In this document: piece by piece, positions 34,084-50,883 of the stretch | How the letters are laid out: every line of letters begins with the position of its first letter | Position numbering within the stretch: position 1 is the stretch's first letter | From: Devosia sp. Root413D1 | GTDB taxonomy: Bacteria; Pseudomonadota; Alphaproteobacteria; Rhizobiales; Devosiaceae | Direction of reading: 5' to 3' | Assembly: GCF_001425235.1 (NCBI RefSeq) | Contig: NZ_LMEA01000001.1 | Span: forward strand, 809,615-873,614 | Length of the DNA: 64,000 nucleotides | Program-made: the position numbers and the translations under genes | Notes under the pieces: generated by a model | The model's input: the letters and a program-made list of their open reading frames with translations, nothing else | Told to the model about the DNA's origin: nothing | Database searches by the model: none

Positions 34084-35073
34084 ATGTCCCTCACCCAAGC
34101 CACCGAGACCGCGCCGCCGGCTGTACCGTTAACGGTCCGGTTCGGTGGCTGGGGCACCGGCATCATGCTGCTTGCCGTGTGGCTGCTGCTGATCGCCGCC
34201 ACCGGCCTCTACCGCCCCGACTTCCTGTCGCAGCAGACGGTGCTGGCCATCGCCTTCACCATGTCGATCGTCGGCGTATTGGCGATCGGGCAGGGGCTCG
34301 TCGCCATCTCGGGCGGCTTTATCGACCTGAGCCAGCCGGCCGGCATGATCACCGCCAGCCTCGTCGCGGTGCGGCTGTCGGAGGCCGGCATGCCGCTTGC
34401 CGTCGTGATCGTCGGCGCTGTCCTCACCGGCATGGTGTGGGGCGCCTTCAATGCGGCGATCATCGTCTTTGCCAAGCTCAATCCGGTGATCGTGACACTG
34501 GCCACCAATTTCATCGGCCTCGCCGCCTTGTTCCTGGTGTTCCAGCTCGCCGAAGTACCGCTCAACTCCGACATCTATCATTTCGGCCGCGCCAGCTTGT
34601 TCGGCCTGCCGGCGATCTTCTGGCCGATGCTGGGGCTGGTGCTGGTGGTGGGGTTCCTCGTGCCGCGCACGAAGTACGGCCGCCGCGCCACCGCCGTTGG
34701 CGGCAATCGCGCTGCCGCCAAGGCGCGCGGCATTTCGCTGAGGGCGACGCGTTTCGCCATCTTCATGGCCGCCGGGGGCTTCGTCGGTTTTGCCGCAGTG
34801 CTGTTCGCGGCGACCGCCGGACCGTTCAACCCGGGTTCGGGCAACGCCATGCAGCTCAACATCATCGCCGGGGTGATCCTCGCCGGCATTTCGCTCGCCG
34901 GTGGGCGCGGCAATTTCTGGATGCTGCTGCTGAGCGTCGGCTTCCTCTCCACCATTCCCACCTCGCTGGTGTTCTTCGGGCTCAGCTCTGACACCCAGTC
35001 GATCTTCCAGGGCCTGATCCTCGTCATCGCGGTCGCCATCGACGGCTTCCGCGCGAGAAAGGGAACGCCGTGA
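34084..35073 (+). CDS. sugar ABC transporter permease (RbsC-type)
   Basis: A permease of ~329 residues with eight to ten predicted membrane helices. It carries the CUT2 signature around GGFIDLSQPAGMI and a cytoplasmic loop GRRATAVGGNRAAAKARGI. ATG 34084 is preceded by GGAA at good spacing; ATG 34060 would add eight residues without a ribosome site. Its stop overlaps the next permease start by four bases (GTGA). Confidence 0.9.
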   Translation: MSLTQATETAPPAVPLTVRFGGWGTGIMLLAVWLLLIAATGLYRPDFLSQQTVLAIAFTMSIVGVLAIGQGLVAISGGFIDLSQPAGMITASLVAVRLSEAGMPLAVVIVGAVLTGMVWGAFNAAIIVFAKLNPVIVTLATNFIGLAALFLVFQLAEVPLNSDIYHFGRASLFGLPAIFWPMLGLVLVVGFLVPRTKYGRRATAVGGNRAAAKARGISLRATRFAIFMAAGGFVGFAAVLFAATAGPFNPGSGNAMQLNIIAGVILAGISLAGGRGNFWMLLLSVGFLSTIPTSLVFFGLSSDTQSIFQGLILVIAVAIDGFRARKGTP

Positions 35074-36077
35074 GCAACGTCACCGCTGATACCACCGCGT
35101 CCACCCTGCCGCCCGCGCCGCATAACCCCTGGCGCGAGCTGCTGACCGGCTCGGTCGCCTCGATCACCTTCACCTTCATCGCCGTGGTGGCGGTGGGCTG
35201 GTTCTGGGTCGGGCCAAAATTCCTGTCGTTTGGCAATATCTCGATCATGGGCACCTTCCTGATCGTGCCGCTGATCGTCGGCGCCTTCTCCGGCATGGCG
35301 CTGCTCTCGGGCGTCGTCGACCTGTCGATCGGCTCGATGGTCGGCTTCTCCTCGGCGGTGTTCGCGCTGCTGATTTCGCTCGGCTGGGATCCGGCCAGCG
35401 CCGCGGCGGTGACGCTCTGCGCCTGCCTTTGCTTCGGCGCCATCAACGCCATCGCCATTGTCGGCTTCGGCGCAGAGCCGATCGCTGCGACGCTCGGCAT
35501 GCTGGTGGCTTTGCGCGGCATCGCCTGGGTGCTGCTCGGCTCGCAGGGCGCCATCTTTGCCTTCAACATCGACATGTTCAACCTGGTCAGCACCACGGTA
35601 TTCGGGCTGCCGCTGTTCTTCCTCCTCGCCATCCTCTTGACCGCCATCGCCGCGCTGATCGTTACCAAGACCCGCGTCGGTCGGCATGTGCAGGCGGTGG
35701 GCGGTGACGACAAGGCCGCGGGGCGCGCCGGCATTTCGGTGAAGAAGGTGCGGGTCGCGGCGCTGCTGCTCTCATCCTTCGGCGCCGGACTCGGCGGCAT
35801 CGTCTATGCCGCGCAGCTCGGCAGCGCGGCGCGTGCCACCGGCGTCGGGCTCGAGTTCCAGGTCTATGCGGCGCTGATGATCGGCGGCTACTCGATCCTG
35901 CGTGGCGGCGTCGGCAACCCGGTCGGTGGTGCGCTTGGCCTCTTGGCGGTCGCCGGGGTCAGCAACATCCTCGATCTCAAGGCCATCAGCCCCTACTACG
36001 TAAACATCATTGTCGGCCTGCTGCTGCTCGCCGCAGTCCTGCTCGATCGCCTGCGTGGCGGCGACGCCTACGAATAA
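35070..36077 (+). CDS. sugar ABC transporter permease (RbsC-type), second subunit
   Basis: A 335-residue membrane protein paralogous to the preceding permease, with SGVVDLSIGSMVGF and GRHVQAVGGDDKAAGRAGI motifs. The start is GTG 35070, translationally coupled to the upstream gene. Two distinct permeases imply a heterodimeric channel, in contrast to the single RbsC or FrcC of classical systems. Confidence 0.9.
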   Translation: MSNVTADTTASTLPPAPHNPWRELLTGSVASITFTFIAVVAVGWFWVGPKFLSFGNISIMGTFLIVPLIVGAFSGMALLSGVVDLSIGSMVGFSSAVFALLISLGWDPASAAAVTLCACLCFGAINAIAIVGFGAEPIAATLGMLVALRGIAWVLLGSQGAIFAFNIDMFNLVSTTVFGLPLFFLLAILLTAIAALIVTKTRVGRHVQAVGGDDKAAGRAGISVKKVRVAALLLSSFGAGLGGIVYAAQLGSAARATGVGLEFQVYAALMIGGYSILRGGVGNPVGGALGLLAVAGVSNILDLKAISPYYVNIIVGLLLLAAVLLDRLRGGDAYE

Positions 36078-36112
36078 CAACCAGTTATCACCCGACCCAA
36101 GGATTTTGTGCC

Positions 36113-37306
36113 GTGAAGATCTCGGACATCACCATCAAGACGTTCCGCACCTATGCCGACCGCTGGGATGTCGGCCACGCGCTGCCTTTGCCCAACACGC
36201 AGATGATGCAGACGGTGCTCACCATCCACACCGACGAAGGCGTGGTCGGGCACTATTTCGGCGGCGGTTCGCACGGCGACAATGAGGGCCTCAACGTCGT
36301 CGACCAGCAGCAGATCCTGTGGCGTATCAAGGATCTGCTGGTTGGCCAGGACCCGATGGATCGCGAGATGATCTGGAAATGGATGTGGGTCGCCAACGTC
36401 CAGGAAAACGTCGCCTCGGTGATCGACAACGCGCTGTGGGACCTCGCCGGGCGCTACGCCAACCTGCCGGTCTACAAGCTGATGGGCGGCGCCGGGCGCG
36501 AGAAGGTGAAGGCCTACGCCTCGACCTACCCCAATATCGGCAAGCCGCACGTCTATGCCGAGCATGCGCTGGCCTGCAAAAACGAGGGCTACATCGCCTA
36601 CAAGATCCACCCGCACTATTTCTGGAACCCTGAGACCGGTCAGCCGACACCTGGCCGCCCGTCCAATATCAAGGCCGATATCGAGACCTGCCACCTGGTG
36701 CGCGAGGCGGTGGGGCCGGATTACGTGCTGATGTTCGACCCGTGGGGCACCTACATGACCATGGAGGAGGCGATCCAGGTCGGACGCGAGCTCGAAAAGC
36801 TCAACTTCTACTGGTACGAGCACCCGATGCCGGAATACCGCACCGAGAGCTATGTGCGGCTGAGCCGGGAGCTGCAGATCCCGATCCTTTCCCCCGAGAT
36901 CATCGCCGGCGGCGTGTTCTCACGCGCCGAGTGGATCCTGCGCGGCGCCGGCGACATGAGCCGCATCGACGTGGTGCGCGGCGGCATTACCGGAGCGCGG
37001 AAGACCGCCATCGTCGCCGAAGCCTATGGGCTGCGCTGCGAGATGCACATGGCCGGCTGGGGCAACCTGCAGGTGATCGGCGCCACCTCCGAGGATACCT
37101 CCGAGTATTACGAGAAGGGCCTGCTCGCGCCGGGCGTCGATTACGACGCGCCGCACCCCTACCTCAAGAACACTGTCGATAAGATCGACTCCGAGGGCTT
37201 CGTGCACATGCCCAAAGGCCCCGGCATGGGCTACGAAATCGAGTGGGACTATATCGACGACAACCTGATCGAACCCAACGCCACGACCAAGAAGACCCAC
37301 TGGTAG
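36113..37306 (+). CDS. enolase-superfamily sugar-acid dehydratase (mandelate racemase type)
   Basis: A 397-residue mandelate-racemase-group enzyme. Metal ligands are D209 (MFDPWG), E236 (WYEHPMPEY) and E262 (SPEI). K164/H166 (YKIH) lie on one face and D286 plus H312 (MHMAGWGN) on the other. The start is GTG 36113 with AAGGA upstream, 35 bases after the second permease. With the mutarotase, aldo/keto reductase and DHDPS-like gene downstream, it is the natural dehydration step for the aldonic acid formed from the imported sugar. Substrate identity is not readable. Confidence 0.87.
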   Translation: MKISDITIKTFRTYADRWDVGHALPLPNTQMMQTVLTIHTDEGVVGHYFGGGSHGDNEGLNVVDQQQILWRIKDLLVGQDPMDREMIWKWMWVANVQENVASVIDNALWDLAGRYANLPVYKLMGGAGREKVKAYASTYPNIGKPHVYAEHALACKNEGYIAYKIHPHYFWNPETGQPTPGRPSNIKADIETCHLVREAVGPDYVLMFDPWGTYMTMEEAIQVGRELEKLNFYWYEHPMPEYRTESYVRLSRELQIPILSPEIIAGGVFSRAEWILRGAGDMSRIDVVRGGITGARKTAIVAEAYGLRCEMHMAGWGNLQVIGATSEDTSEYYEKGLLAPGVDYDAPHPYLKNTVDKIDSEGFVHMPKGPGMGYEIEWDYIDDNLIEPNATTKKTHW

Positions 37307-41712: not shown

Positions 41713-41847
41713 TCAGGTGGCGGGACGGCTGTCGTCGGGCTGGGCCTTCGACTTCAGCGCATCCTCGCGGAACTCGAACCACATGGCGTTGAGGATGCCG
41801 AAGCTGCAGGCGAGGCCGACGCCGAGGATCCAGGAAAAATACCACAT
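41713..41847 (-). CDS. cydX: cytochrome bd oxidase small subunit CydX
   Basis: A 44-residue single-span membrane protein. It begins MWYFSWILGVGLACSFGILN, with the tryptophan, glycine and AMWFE positions typical of CydX, and has a charged C-terminal tail. CydX is required for a stable cytochrome bd complex. It starts 14 bases after the cydB stop codon, as the third gene of cydABX. It is easily missed because of its size. Confidence 0.9.
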   Translation of the reverse strand: MWYFSWILGVGLACSFGILNAMWFEFREDALKSKAQPDDSRPAT

Positions 41848-41860
41848 CCGATCGTCTCCC

Positions 41861-43009
41861 TTAGTAGGCGTTGGGGTTCTTGTTGAGGCTGGCGGTGGTC
41901 ACCGGCCCGCGCATCACCCGGAACACCCAGCTGGTGTAGATCAGGATGATCGGCAGGAAGACGATCGCCGCGCACAGCATGACGAACAGCGTCAGCTGGC
42001 TCGACGAGGCGTCCCACACCGTGAGGCTCGACTGCGGGTCGATCGATGAGGGCAATAGGAACGGGAACAGCGACAGCCCGGCGGTGGCGATGATGCCGAA
42101 GATGGCAAGGCTCGAGCCGAGCAGCGCCACCAGTCGGGCGCGGGCGCCGAGCGCCCACCAGGCAACGAGGCTGCCGAATACTGCGAGGATCGGCAGGGCC
42201 ATGGTCCACGGCATGGCGCCGTAATTGCCGCCCCAGGCGCCGACTTCGCGCACCACCTCTTTGCCGAGCGGGTTCGACGGGGCGATGGTCATCGGCGGGC
42301 CGACCAGGCGGTAGCCTTCGAGCACGTAAAGCGCCAGCACTCCACCAAGCACGAACAGCACGATCGTCGCCAGCGCCGACCAGCGGCCATATTCGCGCGC
42401 TCGCTCGGCGATCTCGCCATCGGTGCGGCCGGCGATCACCGTGGCGCCCTGCGTCACGATCATCGTGAGGCTGACCAGCCCTGAGAGCAGGGCGAACGGC
42501 GTCAGGAGGCCGAAGAAGTTGCCGGTGTAGGTGACACGCTGCGTCACATCGAGCTGGAATGGCGCGCCGAGAAACACATTGCCGACCGCGACGCCGAAGA
42601 TCAGCGATGGCAGGAAGCCGCCGATGAACAATGCCGCATCCCAGGTGGCGCGCCAGCGCGGATCGCTGACCTTGCCGCGGAACTTGAAGCCCACCGGCCG
42701 GATGATCAGCGCCAGGAGGATGGCGATCATCGCGATGTAGAATCCCGAAAAGCTAACTGCATAAAGCTGTGGCCAGGCGGCGAAGATGGCGCCGCCGCCG
42801 AGGATCAGCCACACTTGGTTGCCTTCCCAGGTCGGGCCGACGAGGTTGATCAGCACGCGCCGCTCTTCATCGGTCTTGGCGACGAACGGCAGGAGCGTAC
42901 CGACGCCGAGGTCGCGCCCGCCCATCACCGCAAAGCCGATCAACAGGATGCCGAGCAGGGCCCACCACAGGATGCGCAGCGTTTCATAGTCGAGAGGAAT
43001 GGTGCTCAT
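41861..43009 (-). CDS. cydB: cytochrome bd ubiquinol oxidase subunit II
   Basis: A 382-residue membrane protein with eight to nine predicted helices. [21 protein letters not shown] near residues 58-78 (quoted in part: [10 protein letters not shown]) is the CydB signature. It partners CydA and CydX in the high-affinity quinol oxidase. ATG 43009 gives the normal length; the much longer open frame upstream overlaps cydA in another phase and is not coding. Confidence 0.94.
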
Positions 43010-43020
43010 CGGGCTGTTCC

Positions 43021-44595
43021 TTACTTGGCGGGGGCGATCGTGGCGGTTTCGACCGGCTCGACCGACTGATCGAAGTTCAGCTTGTCGGAGGGGCCGTGCT
43101 TGATGGTGCGAACCATCAGCCAGACCATGACGATGAGCAGCGCCGTGTAGAGCAGCATGAAGAAGCTCAGCGAGATCACCAGATCCCAGAAGTTGAGCCC
43201 CGAGGCGGCGTAGAAGGTGGGCAATACGCCCTCCACCACCCAGGGCTGCCGGCCATACTCGGCGATGAACCAGCCCGCTTCGATGGCGATCCACGGCAGC
43301 GGCAGGGCGGCGACGGCTACCCAGAGCAGCCAGCGCGGCTTTTCGATCCGGTGCGTCGAGGCCTTCCAGAACCACAGCGCGAAGAAGGCGATGAAGAAGA
43401 AGCCGGCGCCGACCATGATGCGGAAGCTCCAGAACAGCGGCCACACGTCCGGTACCGTATCGAGCGCCGCCTTGGCGATCTCCTCGCCGGTGGCGTTCTC
43501 GACATCGGGCCGGTACTTCTTCAGCAGCAGCGCATAGCCGAGGTCGGCTTTGGCGGCGTTGAAGGTGTCGCGCGCCGCGCCGTCATTGCGGTTCGCCTGC
43601 AGCGCGTTGAGCGCCTTGTAGGCCTCGACGCCATTGACGACGCGCAGCGCCGCACGCTCGGTGAGCTCGGTAATGCCCGGCAGGTCGCGATCGAGCGAGC
43701 GCGTGGTGATGAGCCCGAGCACCCAGGGGAACTGCACTTCGAAAGCCGGGCGGCCATCACTGCCCGGAATAGCGAACAGGGTGAGCGCGGCCGGGGCCGG
43801 CTCGGTGTGATACATCGCCTCCATCGCGGCGATCTTCATCTTCTGGTGCTCGGTCGCCACATAGCCCGACTCGTCACCGAGGACGACGACGCTGAGCGCC
43901 GAGGCGAGGCCGAAGCTGGCGGCGACGACGATCGAGCGCTTGGCCAGTTCCTGGTGCTTGCCGCTCAACAGGAACATCGCGCTCACCGCCAGGACGAACA
44001 CCGCGCCGCAGACATAGCCGGCCGAGACGGTGTGGACGAACTTCGCCTGCGCCACCGGGTTGAACAGCACCGCCATGAAGTCGGTGACTTCCATGCGCAT
44101 GGTGTCGGGGTTGAACGCGGCGCCCACCGGGTTCTGCATCCAGCCATTGGCGATGAGGATCCACAGCGCCGAGAAATTGGCGCCCAGCGCCACCAGCCAG
44201 GTGACGGCGAGGTGCGCCACCGGCTTCAGCCGATCCCAGCCGAAAAAGAACAGCCCCACCAGCGTCGCTTCGAGGAAGAAGGCCATCAGCCCTTCCATCG
44301 CCAGCGGCGCGCCGAACACGTCGCCGACATAGTGGCTGTAATAGCTCCAGTTCATGCCGAACTGGAATTCCATCACCACCCCGGTGGCGACGCCCATGGC
44401 GAAGTTGATGCCGAACAGCACCCCCCAGAACAGCGTCGCCTTGCGCCAGACGACGCGTCCGGTCATCACGTAGACGCTCTCCATGATGGCCATCACGAAG
44501 GACAGGCCCAGCGTCAGGGGCACGAACAGGAAATGGTACATCGCTGTCGCAGCGAACTGGATGCGCGACAGATCGACGACGATGGGATCGACCAT
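43021..44595 (-). CDS. cydA: cytochrome bd ubiquinol oxidase subunit I
   Basis: A 524-residue membrane protein that carries hemes b558, b595 and d and the quinol site. His21 in [14 protein letters not shown] is the distal heme ligand equivalent, FVHTVSAGY supplies a second His, and [12 protein letters not shown] is the family hallmark. The short Q-loop form is present. ATG 44595 matches homologues; a longer in-frame start at 44658 is unlikely. The FNR box at 44694 lies about 100 bases upstream, so low oxygen should induce it. Confidence 0.95.
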
Positions 44596-44685: not shown

Positions 44686-44715
44686 GCATCGCCTTGATCC
44701 AGATCAAGGCGATGC
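44686..44715. promoter_or_regulatory. FNR box in the divergent cydA/cydD promoter region
   Basis: A perfect TTGATCCAGATCAA (44694-44707) is embedded in a longer perfect dyad: GCATCGCCTTGAT and ATCAAGGCGATGC, 13-base arms around CCAG. It lies between divergent cydABX and cydDC and should bind the FNR-type regulator encoded at 48421. A TATAAG at 44723-44728 is a possible -10 for cydD. Confidence 0.85.
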
Positions 44716-44762: not shown

Positions 44763-46496
44763 ATGGACGATAAGGCGAAAATCGGGGGGCGCTGGCTGAA
44801 CCGCCTCGCGGCAGCCGACCGGCCGTTGCTTATTGCGGTGCTCGGCCTGCCGCTGCTGGCCGGTGCGCTGCTGGTGGCGCAGGCCATGGTGCTGGCGGGG
44901 CTGCTGCATCGCGCCATCGTCGAGGGCGCTGGGCTCACGACACTGCTGCCGCAGCTGGCGCTTTTGGCGAGCATCCTCGTCATTCGCATCGCGCTGGGTG
45001 GCCTCGGCGAAGTCGCGGCCGTGCGCTTCGGTGAAGCGATCAAGGCGCGGCTGCGCACCGGGCTGGTCGCCGACCTGCTGCGCCGCGCCCCGACCTGGAC
45101 CGCCTCGAAGAGCTCCGGGGCGCTGTCGAGCACCGTGCTCGAACAGGTCGAGGCGCTGGACGGCTATTTCACCCGTTACCTGCCGGCCATGCTGCAGGCG
45201 GCGATCCTGCCGATCGGCTTTGCCGTCATCGCCTTCTCGGTCGATTGGATCGTCGGGCTGTTGTTCCTGATCTCGGCCCCGCTGATCCCGGTGTTCATGG
45301 CGCTGGCCGGCTGGGGCGCCGAAGCCGCGAGCCGCTCGCAGGCCGCCGCGCTGAACCGGCTGAGCGGCCGCTTCGCCGATAGGCTGCGTGGGCTGGTGAC
45401 GCTGAAGCTGTTCGGCCAGGACGCGGCGGAGACGGCGCGGGTGCGGCTCGCCTCCGAGGAGTTGCGGGTGCGCACCATGCGGGTGATGCGCATCGCCTTC
45501 CTCAGCTCGGCGGTGCTGGAATTCTTCGCGGCGCTAGGGGTCGCCGGCGTGGCGCTCTATGTCGGGCTGACCTTCCTCGACCTGGTGAACCTCCACAGCT
45601 CCGAGCTGACGCTCGGCGCCGGGATGTTCCTGCTGCTGATGGCGCCCGAAGTGTACCAGCCGTTGCGCCTGCTCGCGGCGCACTACCACGACCGCGCCTC
45701 GGCCAGGGCCGCCGTGGCGGAGATCGAGCGCGAACTCGATGCGCTGCCGGGGGAAGCGACGCCTTTGGTCGCGGTCGCCGCGGCTGCCGTCGCGACGGGC
45801 GCTGCGACGCTCGAGCTGCGTGCCGTTGCGCTGGACGACCCGACCGGGCGGCCGGTGCTCGCCGCCGCCGACCTCACCCTCGAGCACGGAGCCCGGATCG
45901 CTATCCTCGGCGCCAGTGGCATCGGCAAGTCGACCCTGCTCGAGGCCATTGCCGGGTTGCGGACCTTCAGCGGCGAGATCCGCATTGACGGGCGGGCGCT
46001 TGCCGAGATCGCCGAACCGCAGCTGCGGCAGCGCGTCGCCATGCTGGGGCAGCGGCCACGGCTGTTCGCCGGCAGCATTGCCGACAATATCAGGCTGGGG
46101 CGGCGTGACGCCGATCATGCGGCGGTGCGGCAGGCGGCGCAGCTGGCGCGGGTCACCGACTTCGCCGACGCCTTGCCCGAGGGGTTGGCGACGCACCTCG
46201 GCGAGGACGGGCTGGGCCTTTCTGGCGGCGAGGTCCAGCGCATTGCGCTGGCCCGCATCTACCTGCGCGATCCCGGGCTGATCCTGCTCGACGAGCCGAC
46301 GGCGCATCTCGATGCCGCGACCGAGGCGCTGGTGCTCGATGGCCTCGCCGAATTCGCCGGTGGGCGCACGCTCATCGTCGCCACCCACGCGCGGGCTGTC
46401 GCGGCGCGCATGGACAAAGTGTTCCGCGTCGCCGGCGGCAAGCTGCTGCCGGCGCCGAAGCCGGTCATCACCGATCGCAACGTGGGGGCGGCATGA
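44763..46496 (+). CDS. cydD: heterodimeric ABC exporter subunit CydD (cytochrome bd assembly)
   Basis: A 577-residue fused membrane/ATPase half-exporter with six N-terminal helices and a C-terminal nucleotide-binding domain (GASGIGKST Walker A, LSGGE signature, LLDEPTAHLD). CydDC exports glutathione/cysteine or handles heme and is needed to assemble cytochrome bd. ATG 44763 is the homologous start; the open frame extends back through the promoter region. Its stop overlaps the cydC start by four bases. Confidence 0.93.
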   Translation: MDDKAKIGGRWLNRLAAADRPLLIAVLGLPLLAGALLVAQAMVLAGLLHRAIVEGAGLTTLLPQLALLASILVIRIALGGLGEVAAVRFGEAIKARLRTGLVADLLRRAPTWTASKSSGALSSTVLEQVEALDGYFTRYLPAMLQAAILPIGFAVIAFSVDWIVGLLFLISAPLIPVFMALAGWGAEAASRSQAAALNRLSGRFADRLRGLVTLKLFGQDAAETARVRLASEELRVRTMRVMRIAFLSSAVLEFFAALGVAGVALYVGLTFLDLVNLHSSELTLGAGMFLLLMAPEVYQPLRLLAAHYHDRASARAAVAEIERELDALPGEATPLVAVAAAAVATGAATLELRAVALDDPTGRPVLAAADLTLEHGARIAILGASGIGKSTLLEAIAGLRTFSGEIRIDGRALAEIAEPQLRQRVAMLGQRPRLFAGSIADNIRLGRRDADHAAVRQAAQLARVTDFADALPEGLATHLGEDGLGLSGGEVQRIALARIYLRDPGLILLDEPTAHLDAATEALVLDGLAEFAGGRTLIVATHARAVAARMDKVFRVAGGKLLPAPKPVITDRNVGAA

Positions 46497-48154
46497 GAGC
46501 CATCTTCGCCTTTGCGCCACTGCTGGGGCGGTTGAAGGGCCCGATTGTGCTCACCGTGCTGCTGTCGCTGCTGACGCTGCTCGCCGGCATCGGTCTGCTC
46601 GGGCTTTCCGGCTGGTTCCTCACCGCAGCGGCGCTGAGCACGCTCGGCTCGGCCTTCAACATCTTTGCGCCTTCGGCAGGCGTCCGCGGCCTGTCGTTCA
46701 TCCGTATCCTCGCGCGCTACGGCGAAAAGCTCAGCGGTCACGACATGACGCTGCGGCTGCTGTCCGACCTCAGGGCCTGGCTGTTTGCACGGCTGTTTCC
46801 GCTGGTCCCGCTGGCGCGGCGCTTCGGCCGTGGCGACCTGGTCAGCCGGTTGCTCGCCGATGTCGAGGCGCTGGATACGGTGTTCCTCGTGGCGCTCGGG
46901 CCGATCAGCACCGCGGTACTGGCCGGCGCCGCGATGACCGTGGCGCTGGCGCTTGCCTTGCCCGGTGCGGCCCTGGTCTATGCGCTGCTGTTCTTTGCCG
47001 CGGTGCTGCTGGTGCCGGTGGGGCTGGTGCTGGCCTCGCGCGCTGTCGGCAGCGAGGTCGTCGCGGCTGGCGCGGCGCTGCGCCAGGCCGTGCTCGATGG
47101 CGTCGACGGGCACCAGGACCTGGTGCTGTTCGGCGCTACAGGCGAGGCTGCGGCGACCGCTGCAACCGCATCGGCGCGGCTGGCACAGGCCCGCCGACGG
47201 CTTGGTCTTCGCGCCGCGCTGGCTTCGGCGCTGGTGCAACTGCTGGCCGGCGGTGCCCTGCTCGGCACGCTGGTGGCCGGTTTCGCGGCGCTCGAGGCCG
47301 GTGCGATCGACGGGCCACTGCTCGCCGGTCTGTTGCTGGCGGTGCTCGCCAGCTTCGAAGCCTCCGCCATGCTGGTGCGCAGCGCCACGCGGCTCGCCGG
47401 AGCCGCCGCCGCTGCCGACCGGCTGCAGGCCATCGCCAGCAGCGCGCCCGCCGTCGCCGAACCGGCCGAGCCGCTGCCGATTCCGGCAGGCGGCGATATG
47501 CGCTTCGAGGCAGTGCGCTTCGGCTACGACCCGCAGCACCCGGTGCTCGACGGGCTGAGCTTTGCGGTCCGGAGCGGTGAATGCGTCGCCATCACGGGAC
47601 CGAGCGGCGCCGGCAAATCGACCATCGCGCAATTGCTGCTGCGGCTGGCCGATCCGGACGCCGGCGCGGTGCGCCTCAACGGCAGTGACCTGCGCGATGT
47701 CGCCGGCCCCGAGCTTCGCCAGCGGGTCGCGCTGATGACCCAGGATGCGCCGGTGTTTCTCGACACCATCCGCGTCAACCTTCGCGTCGGGCGCGACGAT
47801 GCCGATGATGCCGCGCTGTGGCGCGTGCTCGAGGCGGTGCATCTGGCGGAGTTCGTTCGCGGCTTGCCCGGGCAGCTCGACGCCGTGGTCGGAGAGGCAG
47901 GCCGAACCCTCTCGGCCGGGCAGGCCCGCCGCATCTGCCTGTCGCGCACCCTGCTGTCGCGCGCCGACGTCATCGTCTTCGACGAACCGACCAGCGGGCT
48001 CGATGCCGAGACCGAGGCAGCGTTTCTCGCCGAACTGCCGGAGCTGACCCGCGGCCGCACGGCCATTGTCATTACCCACGCGGTGGTACCGGAGACGTTT
48101 GACCGGGTGCTGGAACTCAGGGCCGGGCGGTTGGCTGAGGTTCGCCACCACTGA
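46493..48154 (+). CDS. cydC: heterodimeric ABC exporter subunit CydC (cytochrome bd assembly)
   Basis: A 553-residue partner of CydD with six helices and a C-terminal ATPase (GPSGAGKST, LSAGQARR signature, VFDEPTSGLD). The signature is LSAGQ instead of LSGGQ, a variant also seen in other CydC proteins. Translation is coupled to cydD by ATGA at 46493-46496. Confidence 0.93.
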   Translation: MRAIFAFAPLLGRLKGPIVLTVLLSLLTLLAGIGLLGLSGWFLTAAALSTLGSAFNIFAPSAGVRGLSFIRILARYGEKLSGHDMTLRLLSDLRAWLFARLFPLVPLARRFGRGDLVSRLLADVEALDTVFLVALGPISTAVLAGAAMTVALALALPGAALVYALLFFAAVLLVPVGLVLASRAVGSEVVAAGAALRQAVLDGVDGHQDLVLFGATGEAAATAATASARLAQARRRLGLRAALASALVQLLAGGALLGTLVAGFAALEAGAIDGPLLAGLLLAVLASFEASAMLVRSATRLAGAAAAADRLQAIASSAPAVAEPAEPLPIPAGGDMRFEAVRFGYDPQHPVLDGLSFAVRSGECVAITGPSGAGKSTIAQLLLRLADPDAGAVRLNGSDLRDVAGPELRQRVALMTQDAPVFLDTIRVNLRVGRDDADDAALWRVLEAVHLAEFVRGLPGQLDAVVGEAGRTLSAGQARRICLSRTLLSRADVIVFDEPTSGLDAETEAAFLAELPELTRGRTAIVITHAVVPETFDRVLELRAGRLAEVRHH

Positions 48155-48223
48155 AAGGCCCAGCTCCGCTTGAGAGAAATCAGGTCTGGGATGGCGTGCC
48201 TCCCGCGAACATGGCGCGCGTTG

Positions 48224-48376
48224 CCCACCCCACCCCATCCCTCCCCGTCAAGGGGAGGGTGCCGGCTGGTGCTTGTGTCGGTGGCCAGCCACAAACTCGA
48301 TGCTCACCTCCCCCTTGACGGGGAGGCAAGCGAAGCTTGGGAGCGTAGCGAGCTAGCTGTAGCTCGGAGGGGTGTG
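48224..48376. repeat. family B inverted repeat, copy 6
   Basis: CACCCCATCCCTCCCCGTCA... and GAAGCTTGGGAGCGTAGCGA... AGCTCGGAGGGGTG. It is an inverted counterpart of the copy at 24926-25078 and fills the gap between the converging cydC and fnr-type genes. Confidence 0.7.
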
Positions 48377-48420
48377 ACTTGGCCACGATGCACGCGGCGA
48401 CCTCGCCACCAGCCCTTCAC

Positions 48421-49143
48421 CTACCCGCAAAGCCCCTGCAACGCTTCGAGGTCGGGCACCTCGACCGTCCGGTTATTGGTAATCGAAACCACTCCCGCCT
48501 GCCGCAGCTTGGTCAGCTGGCGCGATACTGTCTCGATGGTGAGCCCCAGGAAATCGGCGATATCCGAGCGGGTGAGCGGCAGCTCGAAGCTGACGCCGTC
48601 GCTCGGCTCGGCCGCGGGGTCGGCATGCATGGCGATCAGATAGAGGAAGCTTGCGACCTTCTCCTGTGCGGTTTTCCGCCCAAGCGTCACCATCCAGTCG
48701 CGCGCTTCGTCGAGCTCGCGCAGCGTCTGCTGCATCAGCCGGTGCTCGAGCGCCGGGGTGCTGGCGATCATCTGCTCTAGCGCCGGCCGCGGGATGACGC
48801 AGAGGTCAACCGTGGAAGCCGCCTCGGCGGTGACCACGCTCTCCCGCCCGAACAGCCGGCCGAGGAAATCCGGTGCGAATTGCAGGCCGACCAGCTGCTG
48901 GCGGCCGTCTTCCAGCACCTTGCTGAGCTTGACCACCCCGCGCATGACATTGGCATAGGCGTGGATCGCCGTGCTGTCGCCGATCAGTTCGTCGCCGTGC
49001 TCGTGCCGTTCCTTGCGGGTGTGGCGGGCGAATTCGATCAGCTCATCGGGCTTCAGCGCACCGCACATGCCTCGGTGACGCGCTTCGCAGCTGCGGCACA
49101 GCACGGGGGTCTCGGAATTGTGGATGTCCAGACGCTCGCCCAT
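48421..49143 (-). CDS. Crp/Fnr-family oxygen-responsive regulator (FnrL/FixK type with Fe-S cysteines)
   Basis: A 240-residue FNR homologue. The N-terminal cysteines C16, C19 and C27 (CRSCEARHRGMC) and the central C115 match the four ligands of the oxygen-labile [4Fe-4S] cluster. A cNMP-fold domain and long dimer helix follow. The DNA-recognition helix LTIETVSRQLTKL has the E-SR residues that read TTGAT. It probably activates cydABX, cydDC and the small gene at 49206 when oxygen falls; boxes lie at 44694 and 49383. Confidence 0.92.
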   Translation of the reverse strand: MGERLDIHNSETPVLCRSCEARHRGMCGALKPDELIEFARHTRKERHEHGDELIGDSTAIHAYANVMRGVVKLSKVLEDGRQQLVGLQFAPDFLGRLFGRESVVTAEAASTVDLCVIPRPALEQMIASTPALEHRLMQQTLRELDEARDWMVTLGRKTAQEKVASFLYLIAMHADPAAEPSDGVSFELPLTRSDIADFLGLTIETVSRQLTKLRQAGVVSITNNRTVEVPDLEALQGLCG

Positions 49144-49205
49144 CGCGGGTGAGCCTTACACCCTCCCGCGACCTGGCGGATGGTGAGGTTTGTCGCACGC
49201 GGCAT

Positions 49206-49328
49206 TCAGTCTCGGGGGGCGGACCGCGGCGTATTTCGCGTGTACCACATCACCCAGCCGAGCGTGCCCATCAGCAGGCTGAAGGCGGCGACGACAGCGG
49301 TAACGACGATGGCGGCTTCGGGCGGCAT
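49206..49328 (-). CDS. small single-span membrane peptide beside an FNR box
   Basis: A 40-residue open frame: MPPEAAIVVTAVVAAFSLLM, then a GTLGWVMWYTRN segment and a basic, polar tail. Residues ~5-29 form one clear membrane helix. It lies between the fnr-type gene and a perfect FNR box, reads in the same direction as fnr, and its start codon is six bases from GAGAG. I recognise no family; small subunits of terminal oxidases (CydX, CcoS, CcoQ) have comparable size and layout. Coding status is inferred from hydrophobicity, box and position, not from a database match. Confidence 0.5.
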   Translation of the reverse strand: MPPEAAIVVTAVVAAFSLLMGTLGWVMWYTRNTPRSAPRD

Positions 49329-49335
49329 GTCTATG

Positions 49336-49356
49336 CTCTCTGCTTGACGCAGAGAG
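49336..49356 (-). promoter_or_regulatory. hairpin enclosing the ribosome binding site of the small membrane peptide
   Basis: On the minus strand CTCTCTGC-GTCAA-GCAGAGAG forms a perfect eight-base stem. Its 3' arm contains the GAGAG that would serve as ribosome site for the ATG at 49328. The stem would hide that site. Confidence 0.5.
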
Positions 49357-49382
49357 AGCACCACGCAACGGTACGCGACGCC

Positions 49383-49396
49383 TTGATCCAGATCAA
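49383..49396. promoter_or_regulatory. FNR box upstream of the small membrane peptide gene
   Basis: TTGATCCAGATCAA, identical to the box between cydA and cydD, with flanking near-perfect arms GCGACGC/GCGTCGC. It is 55 bases upstream of the 49328 start codon and 240 bases from the fnr-type gene. Confidence 0.8.
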
Positions 49397-49442
49397 AAGC
49401 GTCGCGATTTCCGTGGCTTGGACAGAACAGCCGAGGTAGCGC

Positions 49443-49955
49443 TCAGCGCGAGAACGGCACCGAAGCCGTCAGCACCTGGCCGGAATTGTTGAACTCGACC
49501 TCGAAATCGACGGTGATGGCGTTGCCCTCGAGCAGAATCCGCGAGCCGATGCGCACATCATTGCCGCCGCGATCCTGCTGCTTCTCGCGCAGGTCAAAAT
49601 TGATCGTGTCGCCCTTGATCTGGCCGACCGCAACCCCGGTGAAGCCCGCATTCGAGCTCATCACCGCCTGGTAGCGCTGCGCCTTGTCGTCGAAGGCGAT
49701 GGTGCCGCTGACCGACAGGTTCATGTCGATCAGGCTGCAGCGGCCGGCATAGTTGATCTTGTTCAGGTTACCCTTGGAAATGCCGAGCCGACATTTGAAC
49801 GGTTCGGGATTCTGGCCTCCGACCAGTGCACCCGCTCCCTTCCAGTCGCCCACGTACGACTCCAGGACTTCCACTGGCCCGGAAATCGCCGGCGTCGCCA
49901 TTCCCGCCAGCGTCATGGCGGTGACGGCCATAGCGGCATGCAGGTGCTGTCTCAT
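49443..49955 (-). CDS. hypothetical periplasmic protein
   Basis: A 170-residue protein with a Sec signal peptide of about 25 residues (ending AISG). The mature ~145 residues look all-beta, with repeated short strands (YVGDWKGAGALVGG; VDFEVEFNNSGQVL) and two cysteines (C54, C73) that could form a disulfide. I do not recognise a family with known function. It is divergent from the ABC exporter genes at 50140; a small perfect dyad lies between them. Confidence 0.7.
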   Translation of the reverse strand: MRQHLHAAMAVTAMTLAGMATPAISGPVEVLESYVGDWKGAGALVGGQNPEPFKCRLGISKGNLNKINYAGRCSLIDMNLSVSGTIAFDDKAQRYQAVMSSNAGFTGVAVGQIKGDTINFDLREKQQDRGGNDVRIGSRILLEGNAITVDFEVEFNNSGQVLTASVPFSR

Positions 49956-49984
49956 CTCGTCCCACGCCCTCCAACGGCGTTCTA

Positions 49985-50000
49985 GCGTTCAGTAACGCTG
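49985..50000. promoter_or_regulatory. small dyad in a divergent promoter region
   Basis: AGCGTT-CAGT-AACGCT, perfect six-base arms, lies 30 bases upstream of the periplasmic-protein gene and 140 bases upstream of the ABC ATPase gene. No regulator gene is adjacent. Confidence 0.35.
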
Positions 50001-50139
50001 AAATCTGTAAGCGGCCGGGTATTCGGTCCGCTTCCATTTTGACTTGCCCGCCCGACGATGCCAGAGATCATGCGGCGGGCAGTAAGAAGCAAGAGCGGCC
50101 TGCACATTCTTTTGGTTTGTCCCCTACCGCAAGTCCCAA

Positions 50140-50883
50140 ATGGCCCTAAGTCAAGACCACAGCTCCAGTCCGCGTGTCCCGGCGGCGCAGCCGATCGTTG
50201 ATGCGTCCGGGGTGAATTACACTCTGGAGGTCGCTTCACAGCCGCTTCACATTCTGAGGAACGTCTCGCTCCGGGTCGAAGCCTCGGAAGTCGCGGCAAT
50301 CGTCGGGCCTTCAGGCAGCGGCAAGACCTCGCTGCTGATGTTGCTGGCCGGACTGGAACGCGCCACGTCCGGCAAGGTGGTGGTCGCCGGGCAGGACCTT
50401 TCGGGGTTGAGCGAGGACGATCTGGCGGTGTTCCGCCGCCATACGCTGGGCATCGTGTTCCAGAGTTTTCACCTCATCCCGTCGCTGACCGCGCTCGACA
50501 ATGTCGGGCTGGCGCTCGAGATCGCCTCGCCCGACCTGTCGCTGGCGCAGACCCGCGAGGCCGCCGCGGCGGCGCTCGAGGCGGTCGGGCTCGGCGGCCG
50601 GCTGCAGCATCGGCCGGCGGCTTTGTCGGGCGGCGAACAGCAGCGCGTCGGGCTGGCCCGCGCCATGATCGCCAAGCCGCGGCTGCTCCTGGCCGACGAG
50701 CCGACCGGCAACCTCGACCAGGAAACCGGCGCGGTGGTGGTCGAGCTGATGTTCGATCTGGCCCGCCAGCAAGGCACCGCGGTGGTGCTGATCACCCATG
50801 ATCCATCGCTGGCGGCGCGCGCCGACCGGGTGTTCACCATGACATCAGGCGAGCTGGTCGAAACCCGATCGGTCCAAGCCTGA
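50140..50883 (+). CDS. ABC transporter ATP-binding protein, YbbA/LolD type
   Basis: A 247-residue ATPase of the MacB/LolD/YbbA class. The Walker A is GPSGSGKTS near residues 59-67, the Q-loop FQSFHLIPSL, signature LSGGEQQR, Walker B LLLADEPTGNLD and switch His ITHDP. It directly precedes a YbbP-like permease and shares the TGATG junction at 50880-50884. No strong ribosome site precedes ATG 50140, so the start is less sure. Confidence 0.9.
   Translation: MALSQDHSSSPRVPAAQPIVDASGVNYTLEVASQPLHILRNVSLRVEASEVAAIVGPSGSGKTSLLMLLAGLERATSGKVVVAGQDLSGLSEDDLAVFRRHTLGIVFQSFHLIPSLTALDNVGLALEIASPDLSLAQTREAAAAALEAVGLGGRLQHRPAALSGGEQQRVGLARAMIAKPRLLLADEPTGNLDQETGAVVVELMFDLARQQGTAVVLITHDPSLAARADRVFTMTSGELVETRSVQA

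Follow-up and report, generated by a model that had tools for sequence, protein, structure and literature searches.

The window analyzed here, a stretch of 64,000 nucleotides from Devosia sp. Root413D1, carries on its minus strand a gene for a 40-residue single-helix membrane peptide (49206–49328, stop codon included), and the sequence relationships place this peptide in an unnamed family of single-helix peptides found in Devosia, in other genomes of its order, and in further Alphaproteobacteria. Genes of the family have an FNR-type box at a nearly fixed position and, where the upstream gene runs in the same direction, an excess of complementarity across the predicted transcription start. The account that we favor, with a probability of roughly 0.55, is that of an FNR-boxed membrane-peptide family whose genes carry a start-straddling hairpin that blocks only read-through RNA. 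When oxygen falls, an FnrN/FixK-type regulator would act at the box, whose median start is 69 nt ahead of the start codon, and turn the peptide gene on. The transcript so started would begin inside the hairpin, lacking its 5' arm, with the ribosome site free, while read-through RNA from the upstream gene would keep both arms and have its ribosome site blocked. The peptide itself may then bind a membrane complex that serves low-oxygen respiration and tune it, in the manner of other single-helix small subunits, a role that we propose with low confidence from its regulation and size.

Read from 49328 to 49206, the frame translates as MPPEAAIVVTAVVAAFSLLMGTLGWVMWYTRNTPRSAPRD, 40 residues with one strongly hydrophobic stretch, and from its size and hydropathy the product is predicted to sit in the membrane. 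The source of the window is a Devosia close to D. insulae DS-56 (fnrN product 97% identical, locus L060). Across the five genomes of the D. insulae group the frame is full-length, with identical and intact start and stop codons. In nine of the ten pairs of this group dN/dS is 0.11–0.29 (ratios derived from separately computed dN and dS); the closest pair, which differs at only five codons, gives 0.72. The peptide gene is under purifying selection in this group, and conservation together with dN/dS rules out a chance frame as the reading of 49206–49328, so that the 40-residue membrane frame proposed in a preliminary description of this DNA is real and conserved in relatives. A longer GTG start at 49364 (52 aa) is disfavored, because it is the ATG that is conserved and transcription is predicted to begin after the GTG; some database entries of relatives use longer frames.

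Pooled, the family comprises 88 distinct peptides of 29–62 residues, and the consensus of 26 members reads MPxExxxxVxAVVxAFxxFMxxLAWxxWxT. In 77 of 83 peptides the positive charge is greater at the C-terminus than at the N-terminus, and the C-terminus is therefore predicted to face the cytoplasm. Among 136 Devosiaceae genomes, matches were found in 43 with the first profile (E up to 0.05) and in 85 with the last (E up to 0.1), with further matches in 97 of 297 genomes of the order (E up to 0.05) and 26 of 385 of the class (E up to 0.01), all of these being rough counts, since many of the weakest matches lie inside long frames and are non-members, and diverged members escape detection. Of 239 genomes drawn from the phylum, five gave a match, all from the same order, but this draw says little beyond the class, as the genomes listed (25 of the 239) are all of that order. 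Three genomes (G024, G035, and G681) have three profile matches each, and one of the copies in each of G024 and G035 directly follows the fnr gene.

The family has gone essentially unlabeled. Of 120 database relatives listed, all are called hypothetical protein or are unnamed, save three with automatic names (amino acid transporter, YraI, and oxidase subunit 3), and no relative among the matches listed has a precomputed Pfam domain. Pfam and NCBIfam scans of 26 members returned nothing at E below 0.001, a search of PDB sequences with a 48-member family profile returned no match at E up to 10, and an Rfam scan of 48000–50200 gave a single match, at another place and far below the gathering score. 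Small membrane proteins under FNR control have precedents. Literature searches turned up no recognizable description of this peptide family, of its near-fixed promoter geometry, or of a start-spanning hairpin tied to the direction of the neighboring gene. The accessible portions of PMC4842269, PMC6515984, and PMC10117765 hold no link to the family; in the part of PMC6710368 available, a small hypothetical protein of Bradyrhizobium diazoefficiens, bsl4623, with a box at -71, is listed in an nnrR mutant table. A second small membrane protein, M(N/E)RIHITQHSSLGA.WFAGWLF (50–51 residues), is encoded at L203 and L230 in genome G083 and at L221 in G071, with an FNR box about 65–67 nt before its ATG; its G083 form has no NCBIfam match.

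The box of the window's gene, at 49383–49396, reads TTGATCTGGATCAA toward the peptide and starts 68 nt before the ATG. As had been claimed earlier, it is identical to the box between the divergent cydA and cydD genes: TTGATCCAGATCAA occurs without mismatch at 49383–49396 and at 44694–44707, and with up to two mismatches there are five matches in the window against 0.13 expected. The pattern TTGAT-N4-ATCAA is exact in the window and conserved in relatives, a box with at least 8 of its 10 positions starting 63–88 nt (median 69) before the ATG of 83 of the 88 distinct family peptides, all inside the interval of 55–90 nt; the other five are without a box at that place. At a stricter threshold (9 of 10), the box precedes 78 of the 88 family peptides versus 70 of 9114 other short frames from the same loci. 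Leaving out nine peptides from loci picked by the box pattern, it is present in 74 of 79. In three sets of loci inspected singly, the box (at least 8 of 10, at 63–88 nt) was found in 27 of 30, 11 of 25, and 27 of 29, and the three loci without it in the first set and about ten in the second concern longer frames. The conserved position of the box across the family makes it likely that FnrN/FixK-type regulators activate these genes at falling oxygen, which upholds, at that strength, the low-oxygen induction proposed earlier for the window's gene, presumably through activation by FNR.

In class II FNR activation the center of the box lies 41.5 bp before the transcription start, and adding this distance to the box center predicts a start at about 49348 (49346–49350). 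Across 80 aligned family promoters there is a weak -10-like signal (A 50% at 37, A 44% at 39, and T 45% at 41, with positions numbered from the box start), which in the window corresponds to a predicted -10 element, TGCTCT (49355–49360), itself a weak match. Since the class II spacing and the -10-like signal both give it, transcription probably starts near 49348, within the hairpin loop and some 20 nt ahead of the ATG. For R. leguminosarum, mapped activating anaeroboxes are listed, in the portion of PMC7888657 available, at locations -32 to -34, which we read as the near edge of the box, and the predicted start agrees with this 32–34 nt spacing. The cyd box likewise begins 69 nt ahead of the probable start codon of cydD (ATG at 44763, picked by eye), a geometry like that of the peptide gene. 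Elsewhere in the same genome, contig C12 has a cluster (25849–70557) of 10 of the genome's 25 FNR-like boxes, which holds ccoN (35011–36387) and a second FNR-type gene (42807–43493).

Along the minus strand, the order is a gene with a weak THAP4-like heme-barrel match, below cutoff in a domain scan (49955–49443), the FNR box, the peptide gene, and an fnrN-type regulator gene (49143–48421), an arrangement whose coordinates bear out the earlier placement of the peptide frame between the FNR-type gene and the box. The THAP4-like gene runs in the same direction, about 115 nt from the peptide ATG, and is a possible source of read-through RNA. The fnrN gene begins 62 nt after the peptide gene and is probably co-transcribed with it; its product has N-terminal cysteines (C-X2-C-X7-C). 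In the gap before fnrN (49144–49170) there is a separate dyad, CGCGGG...CCCGCG, just before the fnrN ATG and almost fully conserved across most of the five genomes, and between cydC and fnrN (48220–48380) there are facing repeats, CTCCCCGTCAAGGGGAGG, which to the eye look like a dispersed palindromic element. Neighbors vary by lineage and include M29 peptidase, Usp, Hsp20, YkuD, short-chain dehydrogenase, ArsR, HU-like, and SET proteins, along with what we take to be uvrA-like and recD-like genes. Seven loci have a neighbor that is presumably cydC-like (the names cydC and cydD being our assumption throughout), and an eighth such candidate, at L278, is a MalK-type ATPase by domain scan.

The preliminary description had suggested an accessory of a terminal oxidase, and a place as accessory subunit in the cytochrome bd or the cbb3 oxidase would make sense of a box that is the same as the cyd box and of a size similar to that of single-helix subunits such as CydX (PMC4325964, in the part available). 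CydX/CbdX (PF08173, TIGR02106), the small subunit of cytochrome bd, indeed resembles the peptide in its single helix, length, and tie to low-oxygen respiration, but the peptide has no sequence match to it and lies outside the cyd operon. The peptide is not a missing CydX: the place directly after cydB is held by a canonical cydX (41713–41847, minus strand), whose product scores 65.1 and 71.2 bits with the two curated models, and neither model is among the 11 and 15 families that two scans of 26 family members gave at E up to 1. FixQ/CcoQ (PF05545), CcoM (NF041600), and CcmD (TIGR03141), single-helix proteins that belong to cbb3 oxidase or to heme export, show a faint resemblance to the family, in one, one, and four of 26 members, respectively, with none at E below 0.001 (best E 0.093, 0.069, and, for CcmD at E up to 1, 0.0015); against CcmD, P0008 scores 14.2 bits, under the cutoff of 25.95. 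With genera pooled, cydA is found in 70 of 76 peptide-bearing genomes versus 37 of 60 others (p 2e-5), but within the two large genera this difference is gone (12 of 14 versus 2 of 2, and 42 of 43 versus 24 of 25). For ccoN there is no association with the peptide (46 of 76 versus 36 of 60). Oxidase co-occurrence thus gives no signal within genera, although genomes scored as lacking the peptide are uncertain, since its profile fails to find diverged members. Peptide genes, moreover, are mostly unlinked to oxidase genes. Two peptide-bearing genomes are without both oxidases, G021, whose peptide is a weak match with a stop inside, and G101, 99% complete, where cydA has no match and ccoN none over cutoff. 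G003, the closest relative and the source of the L060 contig, has cydA and the peptide with no ccoN match, so the peptide does not need a cbb3 oxidase there. The suggestion of an oxidase accessory is thus not supported, and we consider it rather unlikely.

A different proposal is that the peptide feeds back on FNR/FixK regulators, for instance by anchoring them to the membrane or by acting as a brake. The neighbor that recurs is a CRP/FNR-family gene, within about 1.5 kb at 16 of 76 loci by sequence clustering (6 of the 16 checked by Pfam, and the window's own also by domain scan), in several lineages and arrangements, and the peptide precedes fnrN both in the window and in D. enhydra, where the order of box (at -68), small membrane frame, and fnrN recurs, the D. 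enhydra peptide being assigned by place and pattern, without a profile match. Set against this, 60 of the 76 loci have no such neighbor in the fetched flanks, the D. insulae group and family f27, each one lineage, account for 11 of the 16 that do, the figure of 16 of 76 is a raw count, and genes under one regulator often adjoin without interacting. Feedback of this kind appears quite improbable.

The hairpin of the window pairs a 5' arm at 49349–49356 with a 3' arm at 49336–49343, both on the minus strand, 8 nt long, 100% complementary, and 5 nt apart. The 3' arm, GCAGAGAG, contains the purine-rich ribosome site (AGAGAG) and ends 7 nt before the ATG, so the perfect eight-base stem of the preliminary description is exact. 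Taken alone, this hairpin is ordinary (z -0.83, with 39 of 200 shuffles folding as well), and its arm score is weak (z -1.59, a fraction of 0.085 of shuffles being equally good; -1.41 in the direction analysis), as are those of D. insulae (-1.05) and genome G013 (-0.39); with the window's own value weak, the case for the hairpin is carried by the family. In five genomes, the leader from the predicted start plus 12 coding nt folds at only -1.2 to -2.9 kcal/mol. Upon adding the upstream arm, the same sequences reach -13.0 to -21.8 kcal/mol. Because the start is predicted inside the hairpin, with the 5' arm placed before it, an FNR-started mRNA would lack that arm and have an open ribosome site. 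Of the masked ribosome site described earlier, the location in a hairpin therefore stands, but the FNR-started mRNA should be unmasked, and masking would be expected on read-through RNA.

Across the family, the pairing of the segment before the predicted start with the leader, compared to shuffles of that segment alone, gives a mean z of -1.03 (n=80), versus -0.43 for other FNR-boxed genes (n=57, p 0.027) and -0.19 for other genes (n=160, p 4e-5). At least six ribosome-site bases pair with sequence upstream of -20 at 50 of 80 loci and fewer than six at the remaining 30; where the hairpins are clearest, the median distance from loop center to ATG is 18.75 nt, and hairpin sequences vary from lineage to lineage. 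Split by the direction of the upstream gene, in a comparison conceived after the excess had been seen, the family gives -1.54 where the two genes run the same way (n=41) and -0.48 where they diverge (n=37, p 0.0011). This difference holds for six choices of segment (p 0.0005 to 0.0114, or 0.0019 to 0.0187 without box-chosen loci) and upon averaging over 56 peptide clusters (p 0.0045). Generic genes show no such split (-0.30, n=67, versus -0.22, n=114; p 0.84), and other FNR-boxed genes show little (-0.41, n=14, and -0.20, n=32). The family exceeds generic genes at same-direction loci (p 6e-5). At divergent loci it does not differ from them (p 0.36), which, with the 30 of 80 loci having fewer than six bases paired, makes the hairpin a tendency and not a rule. 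Upstream genes were assigned from codon bias by a rough rule that errs at times, at least once against the hypothesis, since L004 was scored divergent and yet clustering puts its upstream gene with those of L001–L003 and L005.

We regard it as likely, by analogy to phage T4 gene e, that the hairpin blocks translation of read-through RNA. Were the real start further upstream, the hairpin would lie within the FNR-driven mRNA and control its translation directly, as its hold on the ribosome site at 50 of 80 loci might suggest; both the box spacing and the -10-like signal, however, put the start in the hairpin, and such control does not predict an excess limited to same-direction upstream genes, so we judge this arrangement unlikely. 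That the effect is seen where the upstream gene runs the same way, over short gaps (median 111 nt), could also be explained if the hairpin were that gene's transcription terminator. TTTT within 25 nt of the ATG is found, however, at only 7 of the 41 same-direction loci, generic genes with same-direction neighbors have no such excess, and the ribosome site is often covered by the 3' arm, all of which leaves a terminator very unlikely.

In the known case of T4 gene e (and I-TevI), according to the part of PMC3014915 available, the leader hides the ribosome site in long transcripts, and a promoter in the 5' arm gives short transcripts that are open, a layout that is proven for gene e. The peptide genes differ in being chromosomal and, it appears, oxygen-regulated, with a start and a block that are predicted and a hairpin sequence that varies by lineage. 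In their box (TTGAT-N4-ATCAA) they resemble the FnrN/FixK anaerobox promoters of rhizobia, with a predicted-start spacing that fits the mapped boxes in the available portion of that work, although the product there is fixNOQP or fixGHIS and here an unnamed peptide family. One might go further and see double-locked, oxygen-gated micropeptides throughout the alphaproteobacteria, with FNR/FixK starts inside a silencing hairpin, so that the peptide would be made only upon firing of the oxygen regulator, and FNR/FixK neighbors that hint at feedback on oxygen sensing or the respiratory membrane, a generalization that we offer only tentatively.

Proteins of under 50 residues frequently escape annotation, and this family is spread across numerous genomes of one order and reaches some others in the class. 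With its near-fixed FNR-type promoter, it would clearly and testably enlarge the low-oxygen regulon known from rhizobia and related bacteria. A start-spanning hairpin that is stronger where read-through is possible would extend the logic of T4 gene e to oxygen-controlled chromosomal genes, and would give a simple genomic signature of genes that are not to be translated from read-through RNA.
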